A stretch of 64,000 bases of DNA, taken from contig DASTWV010000043.1 of NCBI GenBank assembly GCA_035765775.1, forward strand, positions 62,001 through 126,000. The letters are read 5' to 3'. Under the pieces are notes generated by a model. It worked only from the letters and a program-made list of their open reading frames with translations. It ran no database searches and had not been told where the DNA came from. Shown here in pieces: positions 13,789 through 54,735 of the stretch (position 1 is its first letter; each line of letters starts with the position of its first letter). The translations under genes and the position numbers were made by a program. This DNA comes from Actinomycetota bacterium (lineage in GTDB: Bacteria; Actinomycetota; CADDZG01; JAHWKV01; JAOPZY01).

Positions 13789-14166
13789 ATGTCGCATGTC
13801 TTCGCCAGCCCCCACGATGCCGAGAATGCGGTCGGCGATGAGCCGGAACCGAGCGTGGGTCCCTGGTCGCCCCGGATCGACGTCATCAACCACGAAGGGA
13901 TCACCGAGGTGCGGGCCGACCTGCCGGGCATCAACCCCGCCCGGGACCTGAAGGTCATCGCCCGGGACGGGCACCTGACGCTGCGCGGGGAGCGCCGCGC
14001 GGAAGCCACCATCCCCACCGACACGATCGTCCACGCCGAGCGTCGCCACGGCATGTTCGAGCGGACGATCCTGCTCCCCGAGGGCGCCGACCCGACCCGG
14101 GTGCGGGCCGAGTACCGCGACGGCGTGCTGCGGGTGACGATCCCCACCGACGGCGTTGCGCTCTAG
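13789..14166 (+). CDS. Small heat-shock protein Hsp20
   Basis: This 125-residue alpha-crystallin-domain chaperone has PRIDVINHEGITEVRADLPG, DGHLTLRGERR, GMFERTILLPEGAD and the closing YRDGVLRVTIP motif. It acts as an ATP-independent holdase in the cytoplasm. ATG 13789 is preceded by GAAGGAGG. A decayed copy of the last about 20 bases of this gene plus its downstream flank reappears at about 14429 (see the tandem duplication). Confidence 0.93.
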   Translation: MSHVFASPHDAENAVGDEPEPSVGPWSPRIDVINHEGITEVRADLPGINPARDLKVIARDGHLTLRGERRAEATIPTDTIVHAERRHGMFERTILLPEGADPTRVRAEYRDGVLRVTIPTDGVAL

Positions 14167-14428
14167 CCACGTTTCGCTGTAGCCGGGGGGAATCCCGGCG
14201 GTTTGCCGAGGGCCCGCGGCCTTCAGACCCGCAGGAGGCTCGCGTAGACCGCCTGCGTGGCGGAGCACGGCCAGGGCGTGCATCAGCAGCCGGTACCCGC
14301 TCTCGCCCAGGGGAGCCAGGCGCACCAGTTCCCGGCCGGCCCGCACTGCGGCCGGCAGCTCGGTGCCCCCGATGCCCACTCCCGCCGCGCCGTACGCCTC
14401 CAGCGCCCGGAAACGGACCTCCCCCGGC
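14150..14428. repeat. Left, decayed copy of a tandem duplication (pairs with 14429-14800)
   Basis: This stretch begins with the last bases of hsp20 (GACGGCG..GCTCTAGC) and continues as a degraded copy of the 3' part of the SARP-like regulator gene. The right copy begins at about 14429 with the same hsp20-end sequence and continues into the intact regulator. The left copy lacks about 75 bases present in the right copy (after GGAGCACGG) and has scattered substitutions. It therefore holds no functional gene, only a fragment of coding sequence on the minus strand. Confidence 0.85.
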
Positions 14429-14503
14429 CGACGGCGTTTCGCTCTAGCAACATTTCGCTGTAGCAGGGGCGGATCCCGGCGGTTTGCCGCCGGCCCGCGG
14501 CCT

Positions 14504-15262
14504 TCAGGCCCGCAGGAGGCCGGTGTAGACCGCCTGCGTGGCGGAGCACGGGGACACCCCCAGCTCGTCGCGGAGCACGTCCCGGAGGCCGGCGTAGACC
14601 ACCAGCGCCTCGGCGGCGTTGCCCTGGCCGGCCAGGGCCTGCATCAGCAGCCGGTACCCGCTCTCGCGCAGGGGAGCGAGGCGCACCAATTCCCGGCCGG
14701 CTCGCACTGCGGCCGGGAGCTCAGTGCCCCCGAGGCCCAGTCCCGCGGCGCCGTACGCCTCCAGCGCCCGGAAACGGATCTCGCCCAGCCGGCGCCGCTG
14801 CTCGTCGACCCAGGTTCCGTCCTCGCCCGGGAGGAACTCCCGCTCGGCCACGACCAAGGCGGAAATAGCCGGCCCCCAGGCGCGGGCAAAGTCCCCCAGG
14901 GAGACCCGGGACTCCGCCTGGTGCACCGCCGCAGGTGCGGCCTCGACATCGACGAAGCAAGCCTCCGGAAACTGCAGCCGGAGGCTCGACCGGCCTTCGA
15001 GGGCCCCCGCGCCGAGAGCCTTGCGCAGCTTGGATATGAGGGCGTTGAGCCCGGCGTCGGTTGCCGGGGGCAGCTCCTGGGGCCAGAGGGCCTCGACCAG
15101 CTCGTCGCGGCCTATGGGCCGGTGCCGATTCAGCACCAGGTAGGCGAACAGAAGGCGGCCCTGGCGACCGGGCAGGCGGCCCTCCAGGCGCGTGCCGCCG
15201 CGCTCGATCGCGGTCGGGCCGCACAGCTGGATGCGGGTGAGCGTCGTGGGCGCCAAGGTCAT
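14504..15262 (-). CDS. SARP/BTAD-type transcriptional regulator, stand-alone
   Basis: This 252-residue regulator has a winged-helix DNA-binding N-terminus (GRQGRLLFAYLVLNRHRPI, LVEALWPQELPPATDAGLN, LISKLRKALG) followed by a bacterial transcriptional activator (BTAD) TPR-like domain. The latter shows RRRLGEIRFRALEAYGAAGL, AVRAGRELVRLAPLRESGY and a C-terminal RDELGVSPCSATQAVYTGLL. It lacks the ATPase domain of AfsR. The start ATG 15262 was chosen because it begins the recognisable fold; there is no strong ribosome binding site. Its 3' end was duplicated in tandem (left copy 14150-14428). Confidence 0.85.
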   Translation of the reverse strand: MTLAPTTLTRIQLCGPTAIERGGTRLEGRLPGRQGRLLFAYLVLNRHRPIGRDELVEALWPQELPPATDAGLNALISKLRKALGAGALEGRSSLRLQFPEACFVDVEAAPAAVHQAESRVSLGDFARAWGPAISALVVAEREFLPGEDGTWVDEQRRRLGEIRFRALEAYGAAGLGLGGTELPAAVRAGRELVRLAPLRESGYRLLMQALAGQGNAAEALVVYAGLRDVLRDELGVSPCSATQAVYTGLLRA

Positions 15263-48428: not shown

Positions 48429-48827
48429 TCAGAAATCCATCCGGCCGGCGAAATGGGCGCCCACGTCGGGCCGCACCAGTTGGTACAGAGCCACCCGGTG
48501 GCCACCGGGGCCGGTGAACGAGCAGCACGGCCCGTGCGGGATCTCGAAGGTGCGCTCCTTCGTCCACCCCTGGGCCTGCAGGGCGGCGAGGGAGCCTTCG
48601 AGGTCGGCCACCCGGTACACGAGGATCGCCCGGTCGCCCTCCAAATGGTCCGCCAGCAGCACCTGGGGCGGCCCGGCGCTCAGTTCCACCATGGCCACCC
48701 GGGTGCCCATGGCATCGATGGCGAATACCAGCCGGCCGCCGAGGACATCGCAGAACCAGGCGGTGTCGGCCGCCACGTCGGTGCTCGGCGTGTACAGGAA
48801 GTCGAGCTGCTCAAACGGGGGCGCCAC
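48429..48827 (-). CDS. VOC-family (glyoxalase/bleomycin-resistance fold) protein
   Basis: This 132-residue protein has the beta-alpha-beta-beta-beta VOC fold: EQLDFLYTPSTDVAADTAWF, VAMVELSAGPPQVLLADH, and SFTGPGGHRVALYQLVRP. His/Glu metal ligands are not all evident. GTG 48827 start. It is monocistronic and convergent with the propeller gene. Function unknown. Confidence 0.8.
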   Translation of the reverse strand: MAPPFEQLDFLYTPSTDVAADTAWFCDVLGGRLVFAIDAMGTRVAMVELSAGPPQVLLADHLEGDRAILVYRVADLEGSLAALQAQGWTKERTFEIPHGPCCSFTGPGGHRVALYQLVRPDVGAHFAGRMDF

Positions 48828-48838
48828 CGCCCAGAAAG

Positions 48839-48889
48839 CCTACGGCAGGTCCGAGGCGGGCGTGGTGGCCGGGGCGGTGAGTGGGGCGG
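48839..48889. repeat. Left direct repeat: copy of the PBP gene 3' end
   Basis: The first 30 bases from CCTACGGCAGG are identical to 49605 onward, and about 48 of the first 51 match. The repeat contains the PBP stop codon and last codons on the minus strand. It bounds the insert 48890-49604. The arrangement resembles att sites at gene 3' ends. Confidence 0.8.
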
Positions 48890-49122
48890 TGAACGGAGAG
48901 GTCGTGACTCTCTGAGACGGGGCCAAGCCGTGTCTCGATCGGCGCCACTCAACTACAACCACCACATTGCCGATCTTCACGGTGGAGGTTCGGATCCAGC
49001 CTCAGAAGCCTGTGTTGGCATTCTTGCTACCCAAGCATTGGGGTCGGAGCTGATGCTGAAGCCCAGGGTCCCTGATTGGTCGTATTGGCAAAAGAAGGCG
49101 GTCATGCTCGGACCATCTGCTG

Positions 49123-49431
49123 ATGGACGCTACCTTTTCGACTCATCTTATGGAAGGGGTTCCATCTGTTGGTCCTGCCCCAAGCGGACACGCACTTGTG
49201 AAGCGCCTTAGAACTGTTCAACAGAGTGCTCCCGTGAGCCGGTGGAAGCGACTTGCACGGGCCTACCTGGCGGGATTACCGGCCATTTTATTTTGGTACG
49301 GTGTGCTGCTGGTGCGTCACGACTACTTCGGCATGATCCTAGTGCCATTCATTGGGTTAGCGTTATTCGGGTCTGTGTATATCTACATCAGATGGCATTT
49401 TCGACCTCCCAAACAACGCGACCCTAGGTGA
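49123..49431 (+). CDS. Small two-helix membrane protein in the insert (uncertain)
   Basis: This 102-residue open frame has helices YLAGLPAILFWYGVLLV and YFGMILVPFIGLALFGSVYIYI, ending in RWHFRPPKQRDPR. A GTG start at 49234 would give a shorter protein of about 65 residues. Composition is less GC-rich than the neighbours, and no ribosome binding site is clear. It is the best gene candidate in the 48890-49604 insert; the rest (48920-49120, 49440-49600) shows no convincing gene. Confidence 0.45.
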   Translation: MDATFSTHLMEGVPSVGPAPSGHALVKRLRTVQQSAPVSRWKRLARAYLAGLPAILFWYGVLLVRHDYFGMILVPFIGLALFGSVYIYIRWHFRPPKQRDPR

Positions 49432-49604
49432 CGCGCTCTGTCAGGTTGAAGCCGGGCCCGTTGCAGGTAACTAAAGGGGAATTACTCGGGGAAAGACTGC
49501 CGGCGCCAGTGGTCCGGTGACCACGACGGTGCCTTGGGTCCTCCCCTTCGCTCCCTTCGGCGTCGGGTCCCCCTACATCGACCCCCGGCCGGTCGACCTT
49601 GGTA

Positions 49605-49655
49605 CCTACGGCAGGTCCGAGGCGGGCGTGGTGGCGGGGGCGGTGAGCGGGGCGG
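49605..49655. repeat. Right direct repeat: genuine 3' end of the PBP gene
   Basis: This is the partner of 48839-48889, in the same orientation 766 nt away. It covers the last 16 or so codons and stop of the PBP gene. Confidence 0.8.
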
Positions 49656-52600
49656 CCGGCAGGACCAGGCGGTTCCCGGCGTCGTCCAGGATCCCCCGGG
49701 AGACGGTGACCGCCACCTCCGCCCCCGGGGCGGGCGCCGAGGCGAGCACCAGGTCGACGACGGCGTCGGCCGTGCCGGTGCAGGTGGCCAGGGCCACATC
49801 GACGGGCGATCCGCCGGCGGTGACCGAGAACTCGCCCAGATTGACGCTGGAGCACGACACCGGCTTGGAGAGCAGGACGGCGACGACGCTCGACTCGCCC
49901 GAGGCCAGGATCCGCTGCACGGCGGGGGGCTGGGAGTTGACCACCAGGGTCTGGGTGGCTACCGGCGAGGTGGCGCCGCCGGTGTCGACGGCCTCCAGGG
50001 CCACGGTATGCGGCCCGTCGGGGAGGCCCGGCGCCTGGTAGGACCAGGAGACCGGCTGGCCGACCGGGGCGGTCGGCGAGCAGACCGGGCACGACACCCC
50101 GCCGGCGGTGAACGGCCCGCCGTCCAGGCTGGCCCGGATGCCGGCCACGCCGCCGTCGGGGTCGGTGGCGCTCCCGGTGAACGTCGGGCGGGGGCTGGAG
50201 GTCGTCGTCCCCGGGGCCAGGGCGAGTTGGAGCGTCGGGGCCTGGTCGGCGGCGGTCGCCACGAGGCGGGGCGTCGCCACCGGGTTGCCGGCGGCGTCGG
50301 TAGGGCCGGCGGCGCCGGCGGGGCCGGACGCAATGGTCACGACCACCTGATCGCCACCCCGGGGGGCGGCGTCGAGGGTGAGGGCGACCGACGCACTCGA
50401 CGCCCCGGGGCACGCCAGGCTCTCAACCACCACCGACCGGTTCGGGCCGGCGGTGATCGAGAACTGCCCCGCCTGGAGCGACGAGCACGCCAGGGGCTTG
50501 GAGAACGTCGCGGTCATGGAGACCGATCCGCCGACGGCGGTCAGGGCAGCCGGCTTGGGCGCCACCGTGTCGACGGTGAGGGTCTCGGTCACCGCGGCCG
50601 AGGCGGTCCCGGCGTTGTCCACCGACTGGAAGGCCACCGTGTGCGCCCCGTCCGCCAGGCGGAGCGGCGACTGCCAGGTCCACTGCTCGGGAGCCCCGAG
50701 GGCCCCGGCCGGGCCGCAGGCCGTGCAGCCGATCCCGGCCCGGGAGTACGGCGCCCCGTCCACACTGGCCTGCACCGATGCCACCGTCCCGTCCGGATCG
50801 GTGGCCGACCCCTGGTACGACGGCCGGGCCTGGTCGGTGAGGCCCCCGTCGGGGGCGCCGGCGGTCATCGACACCGAAGGCCCGACGTTGGTGGCCGTGG
50901 CGCCGATGGTGTGGGCGGCGGTGAAGTGGTTGCCCGGCACGTCGGTCGGCCCGCCTGAGAGGACCGTGACGGCCACCGGGTCCCCGCCCCGGGGCGGGGA
51001 GGCCAGCGTCAGGGCCACAGTGGCGTTCGACGGGCCGGCACAGCTCACCGAGGCCACGGCGTCGTAGCGGCCGCCCACCATCACGCTGAAGCCCGAGGGC
51101 TGCAGCGAGGAGCAGGCGAGGGGCTTGGAGAAGGTCATGGCCAGCGCCGCCTGGCCGCCGGTGGCGGCCAGCCCGGCGGGCGCCGGTGGGACCGTGTCGA
51201 TGGAGACGGTCTGCGAGATGGGCGCCGAGGCGGTCCCGGCGTTGTCGGTCGACTGGAACGCCACGAGGTGGGAGCCGTCGGCCAACCTGAGGGGCGATGC
51301 CCACGTCCAGCTCACCGGCGCCGCAAGACCACGATTGGCCCCGCAGCCGGGGCAGGAGACCCCGGCGGCCGAGAACGGCCCGCCGTCCACGCTCGCCTGG
51401 ATGCCGGCCACGGTGCCGTCGGGGTCGGTGGCGCTGCCCTGGTAGGCGGGCCGCGCCTGGTTGGTGGGCGCCGCCGCCCCCGGGCCGCCGGCCAGGGCGA
51501 GGGCCGGGGCGGCGTTGGATGCCGGGGCGCTGATCGAGCGGTCGGTGCCGAAGTGGTTGCCGGGCACGTCGGTCGGCCCGCCCGAGTAGGGCTCGGCCAG
51601 GGTGACCGCAACGGCGTCGCCGCCCCGCGGGGGGACCGTGAGGGCCAGAGTGATGCCGGTCGCAGACGACCCATCGCATGCGATTGATGCCACCGGGTCA
51701 ACGTGGGCGCCCACGAGGACGCTGAAGCCCGACGGCTGGAGCGACGAGCACGCCAGCGCCTTGGAGAAGGTCATCGTGACTGCGCCGGCACCGCCGGTCG
51801 CCGACACGGCCGTGGGCTTGGGCGGCACGGTGTCGATGGTGACGGTCTCACTGGCCGCCGGCGAGGACGCCCCGGCGTTGTCCACCGACTGCCATGCAAG
51901 CGTGTGGGCACCATCGGCCAGCCGGGCCGGGGGCCGCCAGGTCCACGACACCGGGGCGGCGAGCCCGCCGGCGTACCCGCACCCGGGGCAGGAGACCCCG
52001 GCGCTGGAGAACGGCCCGCCGTCCACGCTCGCCTGGATGCCGGCCACTGTGCCGTCGGGGTCGGCGGCGGTGCCCTGGTAGGCGGGCTGGGCGTTGGCGG
52101 TCAGGGCGGCAGGGGCGGTCCCGCCGCTCACCCCGAGGCCGGGCGCCACGTTGGCAGCTGCGGCGGTGACGGTCCGGTCACCGGTGAGGGCATTGCCCGC
52201 CTCGTCCGACGGCCCGCCCGAGTAGGGGCTGAGCACGGTGACCGCCACCCGGTCGCCGCCCCGGGGCGGCAGAACCACGGTGAGCGACACGCCCTGGGCC
52301 GCCGTGCCGGCGCAGCCCACGGCGGTGACCGCCGAGAACCGGACCCCCACCACCGCCGAGAAGTCGCCCGGCTGGAGCGTGGAGCACAGCATCGGCTTGG
52401 AGAAGGTGAACCCCAGCGTGGTGCCGGCCCCCTGGGCGGCGACCGCCGCCGCCTTCGGCGCCACCGTGTCGACGGTGAGGTGCCGGGTCAGCACGGTCGA
52501 GTCCCGCCCGGCGATGTCCACGGCCTCGATCGTGAGGGTGTGTGCCCCGTCCGCCAGGGGAGCCGGCGGCTTGAAGCTCCAGGTGACGCTGCGCCCCCCG

Positions 52601-54735
52601 CATCCGGTGCAGGTGACGCCCGCCGGCGCGAAGGCCCCCCCGTCGATGCTGGCCTGCACCGCCACCACATTGCCGGTGTCGTCGGCTGCGGTCCCCTGGT
52701 ACTGGGGTACCCGCTGGTTGGTCTTGACGCCGTCGGGCAGGCCCGCCTTGGCCCCACCGGCCAGGGCGATGGTGGGGGCCGACGTGTCGAGTGCGACCTG
52801 CATGTAGCGCGACCAGACCCGGGCCGGCAGGGTCCCGCCGCTCACCTGCGGCACACCCTCCACGTTGAGCAGGGGCTTGTTGGAATTCATGTAGCCCACC
52901 CACACGGCGGTCGCCAGGGTGGGTGTGTAGCCCACGAACCATGCATTGTCGAAGTTCTGGGCGGTGCCGGTCTTGCCGGCGGCCGGCTGGCCGATGCTGG
53001 CGGCGGTGCCGGTGCCCCGGACGATCACCTGCTGCAGGATCGAGGTCTCCTCGCTGGCAATCGAGGGCGGGAGGGCCTGGACGCCGCCGGCGGGCCCGTT
53101 GGCCAGCACGGAGGCACCCCTGGTCACCGAAGTCACCAGGGTGGGCGCGTGGTACACGCCATTGTCCGCCAGCGTGGCATAGGCGGAGGCCATCTCCAGG
53201 GGGGTCACCCCGGCGCTGCCCAGTGCGAGGGAGGGCACGGCGGGCAGGAAGGACTGGCATACCGGTGTCCCGGCCGGCCGGCACCCCACCTGGGGCGGCA
53301 CCACGTCGGCCGGGGCCGGGATGCCCATCTTGTGGGCGATGTTGACCACGTTCTGCGCCCCGACCTGGAGGATCAGCTGCGCGTAGACGGTATTGACCGA
53401 GTTCACCGTGGCGTTGAGCAGGTTGATTGACCCAAAGGATTCGCCCCCAAAGTTACTCACGCACCCGGGATTCCAACCCTTCGGGCACAGCCTTGACGGT
53501 CCGTTGTAAACCGCCAGCGGTGATATCCCCTGCTCCAGTGCAGCCGCCAACACAAACGGTTTGAATGCCGATCCCGGCTGCCGGCGACCAAGCGTGGCGA
53601 CGTTGAACTGGGACGCCGAGTAGTCCTTGCCCCCGACGATCGCCCGGACGTAGCCGGTGGCCGGATCGATGGCCACGAGCGAGGAATCGGGGTCGGAGGG
53701 GCTGGAGAGCACCGCCTGGATGGACGCCTGGGCGGCGGCCTGCATGGCCGGGTCCAGGGTGGTATGGATCTGCAGCCCGCCGCCGTAGACCCGCTGGGCG
53801 CCGTACTGGGCCAGCATGGAGGTCCGCAGGGCGTCCAGGAACCAGGCATAGTTGGCATTGGCCGGCACCGGGGTGGCCAGAACCGTGGCGCTCGCCCGGG
53901 CCTGGTCCGCCTCGGTGGCGCTGACCTGGTGCAGTTTCTGCATGCGGCCCAGCACCCGGAGGCGGTCGGTGTTGGCCGCTGCGGCGTTGGTGGTCGGGGC
54001 GTCGGCGTCGGGCGAGTGGATGATGCCCGCCAGTAGGGCGGCCTGCGAGAGCGTGAGCTGGGACGCCTGCTCGCCGAAGTAGGTCTCGGCCGCCGCCTGG
54101 GCGCCGTAAGCACCGTCGCCGAAGTAGGCGGTGTTCAGGTAGTCGTCCATGATCTGGTTCTTCGTGAGCTTGCGGGTGAGCTCGATGGCCACCCGGGCCT
54201 CCAGCAGCTTGCGGGTCAGCGTTGGCTTGTCGCCCACGTAGGCGTCCTTGACGTACTGCTGGGTGATCGTCGAGCCGCCCTCGACGATCCGCCCCTGCTT
54301 GAGATCGGTGACTGCGGCGCGCAGGATCGACCGCAGGTCCACCCCGGGCTCGGAGTAGAAGCGGGCGTCCTCTTCGGCCACCACCGCTTTGGGCAGATAG
54401 GGAGAGATCCGGTCGAGTGGGACCGGTTCCCGGTTGATGGCGCCGTGCCAGGTGGCGACGAGGCTGCCGTCGGCGGCGAAGACCTTGCTGGACGCCACCG
54501 AGGCGGAGGGGAGCTGCTTGGGGACCGGCACCGGGCCGAGCAGCACGTAGAGCACGATCCCGGCGGCGATGATCCCACCCAGCACCAGGAGCACCAGCAG
54601 GGCGAGGATCGTGCCCAGCAGCGGGAGGTTGGCGAGGAACGCCAGCACACTCCAGAACCAGCCGCCCGCTTCGATCCCCTGGTGCGGCAGGGGGAGCGAG
54701 CTCCACGTAGTTTCTTTTCGATACGACCAGGCCAC
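49606..54735 (-). CDS. Bifunctional penicillin-binding protein (class A) with five long C-terminal repeats
   Basis: This 1,709-residue peptidoglycan synthase has a membrane helix (about 29-68) and a transglycosylase domain (about 85-265) with catalytic Glu in VVAEEDARFY (121/122) and GGSTITQQYVKD. The transpeptidase (about 320-640) has SxxK in GSAFKPF (near 388), SVN in ATVNSVNTVYAQ and KTG in GKTGTAQNF (near 588). From about 650 to the end come five tandem units of about 205 residues. Each has xPxYQGxAxDPDGxVAxxQASxDG, GVSCPGCG, LADGAHT, then TFSKPLACSSLQPSGFSV and PPRGGDxVAVT, and looks like paired Ig-like domains with conserved Cys. Ordinary class A PBPs end near 700-900 residues. Start GTG 54735 with GGAGG. 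Confidence 0.92.
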   Translation of the reverse strand: MAWSYRKETTWSSLPLPHQGIEAGGWFWSVLAFLANLPLLGTILALLVLLVLGGIIAAGIVLYVLLGPVPVPKQLPSASVASSKVFAADGSLVATWHGAINREPVPLDRISPYLPKAVVAEEDARFYSEPGVDLRSILRAAVTDLKQGRIVEGGSTITQQYVKDAYVGDKPTLTRKLLEARVAIELTRKLTKNQIMDDYLNTAYFGDGAYGAQAAAETYFGEQASQLTLSQAALLAGIIHSPDADAPTTNAAAANTDRLRVLGRMQKLHQVSATEADQARASATVLATPVPANANYAWFLDALRTSMLAQYGAQRVYGGGLQIHTTLDPAMQAAAQASIQAVLSSPSDPDSSLVAIDPATGYVRAIVGGKDYSASQFNVATLGRRQPGSAFKPFVLAAALEQGISPLAVYNGPSRLCPKGWNPGCVSNFGGESFGSINLLNATVNSVNTVYAQLILQVGAQNVVNIAHKMGIPAPADVVPPQVGCRPAGTPVCQSFLPAVPSLALGSAGVTPLEMASAYATLADNGVYHAPTLVTSVTRGASVLANGPAGGVQALPPSIASEETSILQQVIVRGTGTAASIGQPAAGKTGTAQNFDNAWFVGYTPTLATAVWVGYMNSNKPLLNVEGVPQVSGGTLPARVWSRYMQVALDTSAPTIALAGGAKAGLPDGVKTNQRVPQYQGTAADDTGNVVAVQASIDGGAFAPAGVTCTGCGGRSVTWSFKPPAPLADGAHTLTIEAVDIAGRDSTVLTRHLTVDTVAPKAAAVAAQGAGTTLGFTFSKPMLCSTLQPGDFSAVVGVRFSAVTAVGCAGTAAQGVSLTVVLPPRGGDRVAVTVLSPYSGGPSDEAGNALTGDRTVTAAAANVAPGLGVSGGTAPAALTANAQPAYQGTAADPDGTVAGIQASVDGGPFSSAGVSCPGCGYAGGLAAPVSWTWRPPARLADGAHTLAWQSVDNAGASSPAASETVTIDTVPPKPTAVSATGGAGAVTMTFSKALACSSLQPSGFSVLVGAHVDPVASIACDGSSATGITLALTVPPRGGDAVAVTLAEPYSGGPTDVPGNHFGTDRSISAPASNAAPALALAGGPGAAAPTNQARPAYQGSATDPDGTVAGIQASVDGGPFSAAGVSCPGCGANRGLAAPVSWTWASPLRLADGSHLVAFQSTDNAGTASAPISQTVSIDTVPPAPAGLAATGGQAALAMTFSKPLACSSLQPSGFSVMVGGRYDAVASVSCAGPSNATVALTLASPPRGGDPVAVTVLSGGPTDVPGNHFTAAHTIGATATNVGPSVSMTAGAPDGGLTDQARPSYQGSATDPDGTVASVQASVDGAPYSRAGIGCTACGPAGALGAPEQWTWQSPLRLADGAHTVAFQSVDNAGTASAAVTETLTVDTVAPKPAALTAVGGSVSMTATFSKPLACSSLQAGQFSITAGPNRSVVVESLACPGASSASVALTLDAAPRGGDQVVVTIASGPAGAAGPTDAAGNPVATPRLVATAADQAPTLQLALAPGTTTSSPRPTFTGSATDPDGGVAGIRASLDGGPFTAGGVSCPVCSPTAPVGQPVSWSYQAPGLPDGPHTVALEAVDTGGATSPVATQTLVVNSQPPAVQRILASGESSVVAVLLSKPVSCSSVNLGEFSVTAGGSPVDVALATCTGTADAVVDLVLASAPAPGAEVAVTVSRGILDDAGNRLVLPAAPLTAPATTPASDLP

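Follow-up and report, generated by a model that had tools for sequence, protein, structure and literature searches.

A 715-bp insert between two copies of a PBP gene end in an Actinomycetota genome, possibly a scar of non-specific recombination

The ssrA islands of Dehalococcoides are integrative elements that occupy a gene 3' end and leave a 20-bp direct repeat (PMC3146451). In such gene-3'-end elements, the end of the target gene is repeated on the far side of the foreign DNA while the gene itself stays intact, and the locus described here, which lies behind a cell-wall gene for a class A PBP in an Actinomycetota bacterium, is built in the same way. A second described process, homology-facilitated illegitimate recombination, is the subject of PMC3240628 and is also covered by works cited in PMC3784515. 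In this process, homology acts at one end only and foreign DNA is trapped beside a partly duplicated homologous stretch, which may likewise apply to the present locus. We compared the locus with both systems, using the 64,000-nt stretch of contig DASTWV010000043.1 that contains it (hereafter the window), the remainder of the genome, and a related genome.

The two copies of the PBP gene end, designated R and R' (Table 1), form a 51-nt direct repeat with 49 of 51 positions identical (96%) and a spacing of 766. Each copy comprises the last 15 PBP codons, the stop codon, and one base past the stop. The initial annotation had reported that the last codons and stop of the gene are duplicated in the same orientation 766 bp apart; the repeat was confirmed and its coordinates were right. 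A 29-nt piece of the repeat was found at only these two sites in the 3.6-Mb genome with up to three mismatches allowed; R has no other copies there by this search, and the confinement to two sites places the 51-nt repeat far beyond chance. The likeness between R and R' breaks off abruptly at both ends, with no similarity further out. Judged from the ORF positions, R' ends 11 bp ahead of the VOC start, and the VOC gene was thus left with PBP-end sequence directly upstream. The protein-family search showed that the PBP carries several bacterial Ig-like domains besides the transglycosylase and transpeptidase. These form an unusually long C-terminal array in a protein of 1709 aa, and the array is also present in the sister genus (1497 aa).

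Table 1. Positions of the features at the PBP locus and of the two similar structures on the same contig.
Feature	Position	Strand	Basis or remarks
VOC (glyoxalase-like) gene	48429..48827	-	next gene downstream of PBP, as in the sister genus
R', stranded copy of the PBP 3' end	48839..48889	-	repeat, ORF positions, and two synonymous differences
Insert, 715 bp, 57.6% GC, no detectable relatives	48890..49604	.	GC scan and database searches
GC-poor core of the insert, about 55% GC	48940..49500	.	GC scan
102-aa ORF with two hydrophobic stretches, candidate coding only	49123..49431	+	ORF list, shuffles, and database searches
Native-like GC-rich part (72% GC, ~105 bp) adjoining the PBP stop	49501..49604	.	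GC scan
R, authentic PBP 3' end	49605..49655	-	repeat and ORF positions
Class A PBP gene, intact	49606..54735	-	transglycosylase, transpeptidase, C-terminal Ig-like repeats
Polysaccharide deacetylase 3' end, 61 nt	C43:155235-155295 and 156212-156272		977 bp apart; outside the window
Thioredoxin 3' end, 134 nt	C43:156623-156756 and 158219-158352		1596 bp apart; outside the window

The PBP–VOC gene order was found, by two routes, in one other genome only, the draft MAG RYN_267 (G001), which belongs to another genus of the same family. In that genome, 80 bp separate the PBP stop from the VOC start. The spacer of the sister genus is thus without the insert; the initial annotation had proposed to look for an empty site in close relatives. 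The VOC proteins of the two genomes are 70% identical, and the insert showed no similarity to the PBP–VOC spacer of G001. Since the same gene order is separated there by just 80 bp, the DNA between PBP and VOC was probably gained on the window's side; this rests on two genera, between which a loss in G001 could also account for the difference. The two further structures of Table 1 gave no second empty site in G001, where the deacetylase and thioredoxin genes lie on different contigs.

The insert is the lowest in GC of all 715-bp stretches of the window (57.6% versus 71.3%, SD 3.4). The contrast is weaker against the contig's own intergenic DNA (68.0%, SD 5.4), a roughly defined set in which 2 of 75 stretches were equally low. 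The drop is limited to the GC-poor core and does not extend to the part beside the PBP stop. Therefore, the description of the DNA between the repeats as less GC-rich held for the insert as a whole and for its core, and failed for the ~105 bp next to the gene; the absence of any measurable difference, named beforehand as an outcome that would speak against the annotation, was not what we found. The insert DNA, for which a database search had also been proposed, had no relatives in any collection searched, with chance-level matches of 24–55 bp only among phages, plasmids, and 397 genomes of the phylum. No promoter-like site, RNA family, tRNA, or protein family was found in it, and comparison of the ORFs and the other translated frames with protein families revealed neither decayed genes nor a transposase. 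RNA families and remnants of tRNA or tmRNA, considered as a hidden target, gave nothing credible, and a relaxed ARAGORN run produced noise only. Apart from the 51-nt repeat, no further pieces of PBP or VOC were detected within the insert, and its ends bear no convincing terminal inverted repeats. A transposon or insertion sequence was rejected as a candidate, as the locus has no terminal inverted repeats, short target duplication, or transposase.

The small two-helix membrane ORF described in the initial annotation stood up in part. Its two hydrophobic stretches are unusual, as ORFs of at least 60 aa with two hydrophobic windows above 1.6 arose in 0.2% of shuffles only; the ORF itself passes this threshold once (2.17), its second window falling just short (1.56). 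On the other hand, its length is no longer than chance for such DNA (P = 0.46, dinucleotide shuffles). The GC content at its three codon positions (0.60/0.47/0.53) is unlike that of native genes, in which the third position is about 0.9. Searches among viral contigs, phages, GTDB genomes, 397 phylum genomes, Pfam, PHROGs, and NCBIfam yielded no relatives beyond chance, and the ORF is possibly coding. The insert most likely has no role: the PBP gene is intact, and no gene in the insert demonstrably matters.

Isolated repeats of at least 35 nt, spaced 0.3–6 kb apart, were sought in stretches amounting to ~1.05 Mb of the genome; in-gene repeats aside, three pairs remained. All three lie on this contig, all are gene 3' ends, and all have the order gene, insert, stranded fragment; none of these structures occurred in about 0.8 Mb of other contigs. 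The repeats differ in length, with 51 nt for PBP, 61 nt for the polysaccharide deacetylase, and 134 nt for thioredoxin, and in each pair the likeness ends no more than a few bases from the stop codon of the gene. A 53-nt REP/MITE-like palindrome, with another copy near G000:C9:8960, interrupts the deacetylase fragment, which seems to extend upstream beyond it. The DNA between the deacetylase repeats encodes a small putative two-helix membrane protein. Between the thioredoxin repeats, there are a PIN-domain gene and an IS21-like transposase remnant, the end of which, as we read it, abuts the thioredoxin fragment. A repeat of the in-gene kind is present at window positions 14147–14791, where a 163-bp block is repeated with a spacing of 361 (92%) and a 124-bp block with a spacing of 281 in one open frame, giving a tandem-like arrangement.

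The two codons that differ between R and R' are both synonymous. The numbers of synonymous and nonsynonymous codon differences were 4 and 2 for the deacetylase pair, counting the stop codon, and 4 and 3 for the thioredoxin pair. Pooled over the three pairs, 10 of 15 differences were synonymous and five nonsynonymous (P about 0.009; 0.0085) against one third, which is a rough expectation for a drifting dead copy, and the pooling assumes three loci of one kind. Such a silent excess suggests that two alleles were joined, either when DNA from a related strain recombined with the chromosome or through assembly of mixed strains.

The explanation that we tentatively favor, at somewhat less than an even chance, is that the insert is an inert scar left when DNA was acquired non-specifically, through homology-facilitated illegitimate recombination or a comparable repair event. 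The donor molecule, from a related strain, would have had a PBP 3' end of its own and, beyond it, different DNA, partly native-like and partly GC-poor. It would have recombined within the shared PBP end, and its other end would have been joined illegitimately to the chromosome of the resident strain at a point 51 bp inside the PBP end there. The product would be PBP with one allele (R), 715 bp of donor-side DNA, the stranded other allele (R'), and VOC. The donor, mechanism, and order of events are deduced from the present arrangement. In such a scar, one junction would fall in homologous DNA and the other would show microhomology at most; the abrupt end of the likeness between R and R' on both sides is consistent with this. 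The single-copy spacer of the sister genus, which has no insert, argues for this history, as does the end of the likeness near the stop codon in three pairs, which is where a conserved coding end would meet different downstream DNA. The 10:5 synonymous excess would be expected of two functional alleles and not of a drifting dead copy, and the DNA beside R is native-like in GC. In addition, the differing targets and repeat lengths argue against one dedicated recombinase. Against the scar, no donor sequence was found in the genome collections searched, the focal pair contributes just two differences, so that the excess depends on pooling three loci, and the three cases could stem from three different integrative elements or from mixed-strain assembly.

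The initial annotation had regarded the duplicated gene end as the hallmark of site-specific integration and had suggested a remnant, or a passenger mobilized in trans. R and R' would then be the attachment sites of a tyrosine-recombinase element whose integrase was deleted or acts from elsewhere. One feature of such an element is present, namely the gene end directly repeated at both borders with the gene intact, and the GC-poor DNA between the repeats is absent from the sister genus. Five tyrosine recombinases were detected in the genome by the PF00589 profile search, and synonymous differences would also result if the element had brought in the gene end of a previous host. Nevertheless, neither an integrase gene nor any ORF matching a family was found inside the insert, and the annotated absence of an integrase was borne out, the nearest tyrosine recombinase lying about 67–68 kb away on the same contig. 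The PBP end aligned with that of G001, the only relative compared, no better than shuffled sequence did (score 10.0 versus 8.8, SD 2.0). An imperfect inverted-repeat core was likewise not detected in R, as 437 of 500 shuffles reached its best dyad. The repeat is unique in the genome, the similar structures differ in target and length, searches of viral contigs, phages, and plasmids gave no relatives of the insert, and 715 bp is very small. The target, core, and genome searches thus did not support the hallmark claim; a remnant is in our judgment rather unlikely, while being the most credible of the alternatives.

The recombinase on this contig belongs to a 14.7-kb island (C43:173948-188685, outside the window), which contains a tyrosine integrase and an IS3-like transposase and carries at either border a 45-bp repeat from the 3' end of a tRNA-Ala(CGC) gene; it shows what a real island looks like in this genome. 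Around the other four integrases, no repeats of at least 24 nt were found in 20-kb stretches.

We consider it unlikely that the locus is an assembly chimera of two strains, one with PBP-R-insert and the other with PBP-R'-VOC, in which case one strain may truly carry the insertion, the repeat being artefactual. The assembly is a draft of 62 contigs with 1.23% contamination, the copies differ like alleles, and three such structures are gathered on one contig with none in about 0.8 Mb of others. However, the sampled contigs contain no N runs, and the thioredoxin and deacetylase fragments bear old-looking secondary changes, namely the IS21-type end and the palindromic insertion.

A staggered break that captured foreign DNA, with its 51-nt overhangs filled in to give R and R' as a long target-site duplication of one sequence, or transposition with an unusually long duplication, appears quite improbable. 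The sharp ends of the repeat, with no similarity beyond, agree with a staggered break, and the very G-rich sequence may be break-prone. This reading explains neither the excess of synonymous differences nor the fact that in three cases the likeness stops where the coding sequence does, and the insert ends lack terminal inverted repeats. Usual target duplications of transposons are 2–14 bp, which also counts against a long duplication.

Still less probable is an eroded local duplication, in which a second PBP copy or a longer segment before VOC was replaced or deleted except for its last 51 bp: the thioredoxin fragment beside the IS21-type end resembles an eroded second copy, but nothing else of PBP or VOC recurs in the insert, and the GC-poor DNA would still require an outside source. 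The occurrence of PBP, polysaccharide deacetylase, and thioredoxin cases on one contig could also be taken for a recurrent process of this lineage that adds short cargo behind protein-coding genes, duplicating ~50–135 bp of 3' ends at differing targets with no dedicated recombinase, a proposal to which we give very little credence.

If the insert is a recombination scar, the locus shows that a gene end can be repeated around foreign DNA with no integrase, and site-specific integration is then not proved by this layout alone. Whether two copies are separate alleles or one is a decaying duplicate could be tested simply on similar findings by looking for an excess of silent differences between them, as found here. 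Among known systems, gene-3'-end integrative elements such as the ssrA islands (PMC3146451) are matched by the tRNA-Ala island of the same contig and not by the PBP insert, which has no recombinase, conserved target, or dyad core, lies at a target unique in the genome, and is only 715 bp long. The insert resembles an integron gene cassette in its size, in having at most one ORF and no integrase of its own, and in the similar sequences at both ends. A cassette was nevertheless rejected, as the repeats are PBP coding sequence with no attC core motifs (RYYYAAC ... GTTRRRY) in R or R'; the matches at 48947–48953 and 49216–49222 fall outside the repeats. From homology-facilitated illegitimate recombination, the locus differs in that it is read from the end product alone, with an untraceable homologous anchor and no donor sequence. 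Integration scars with duplicated gene ends are already known; what is unusual here is the recurrence on one contig.
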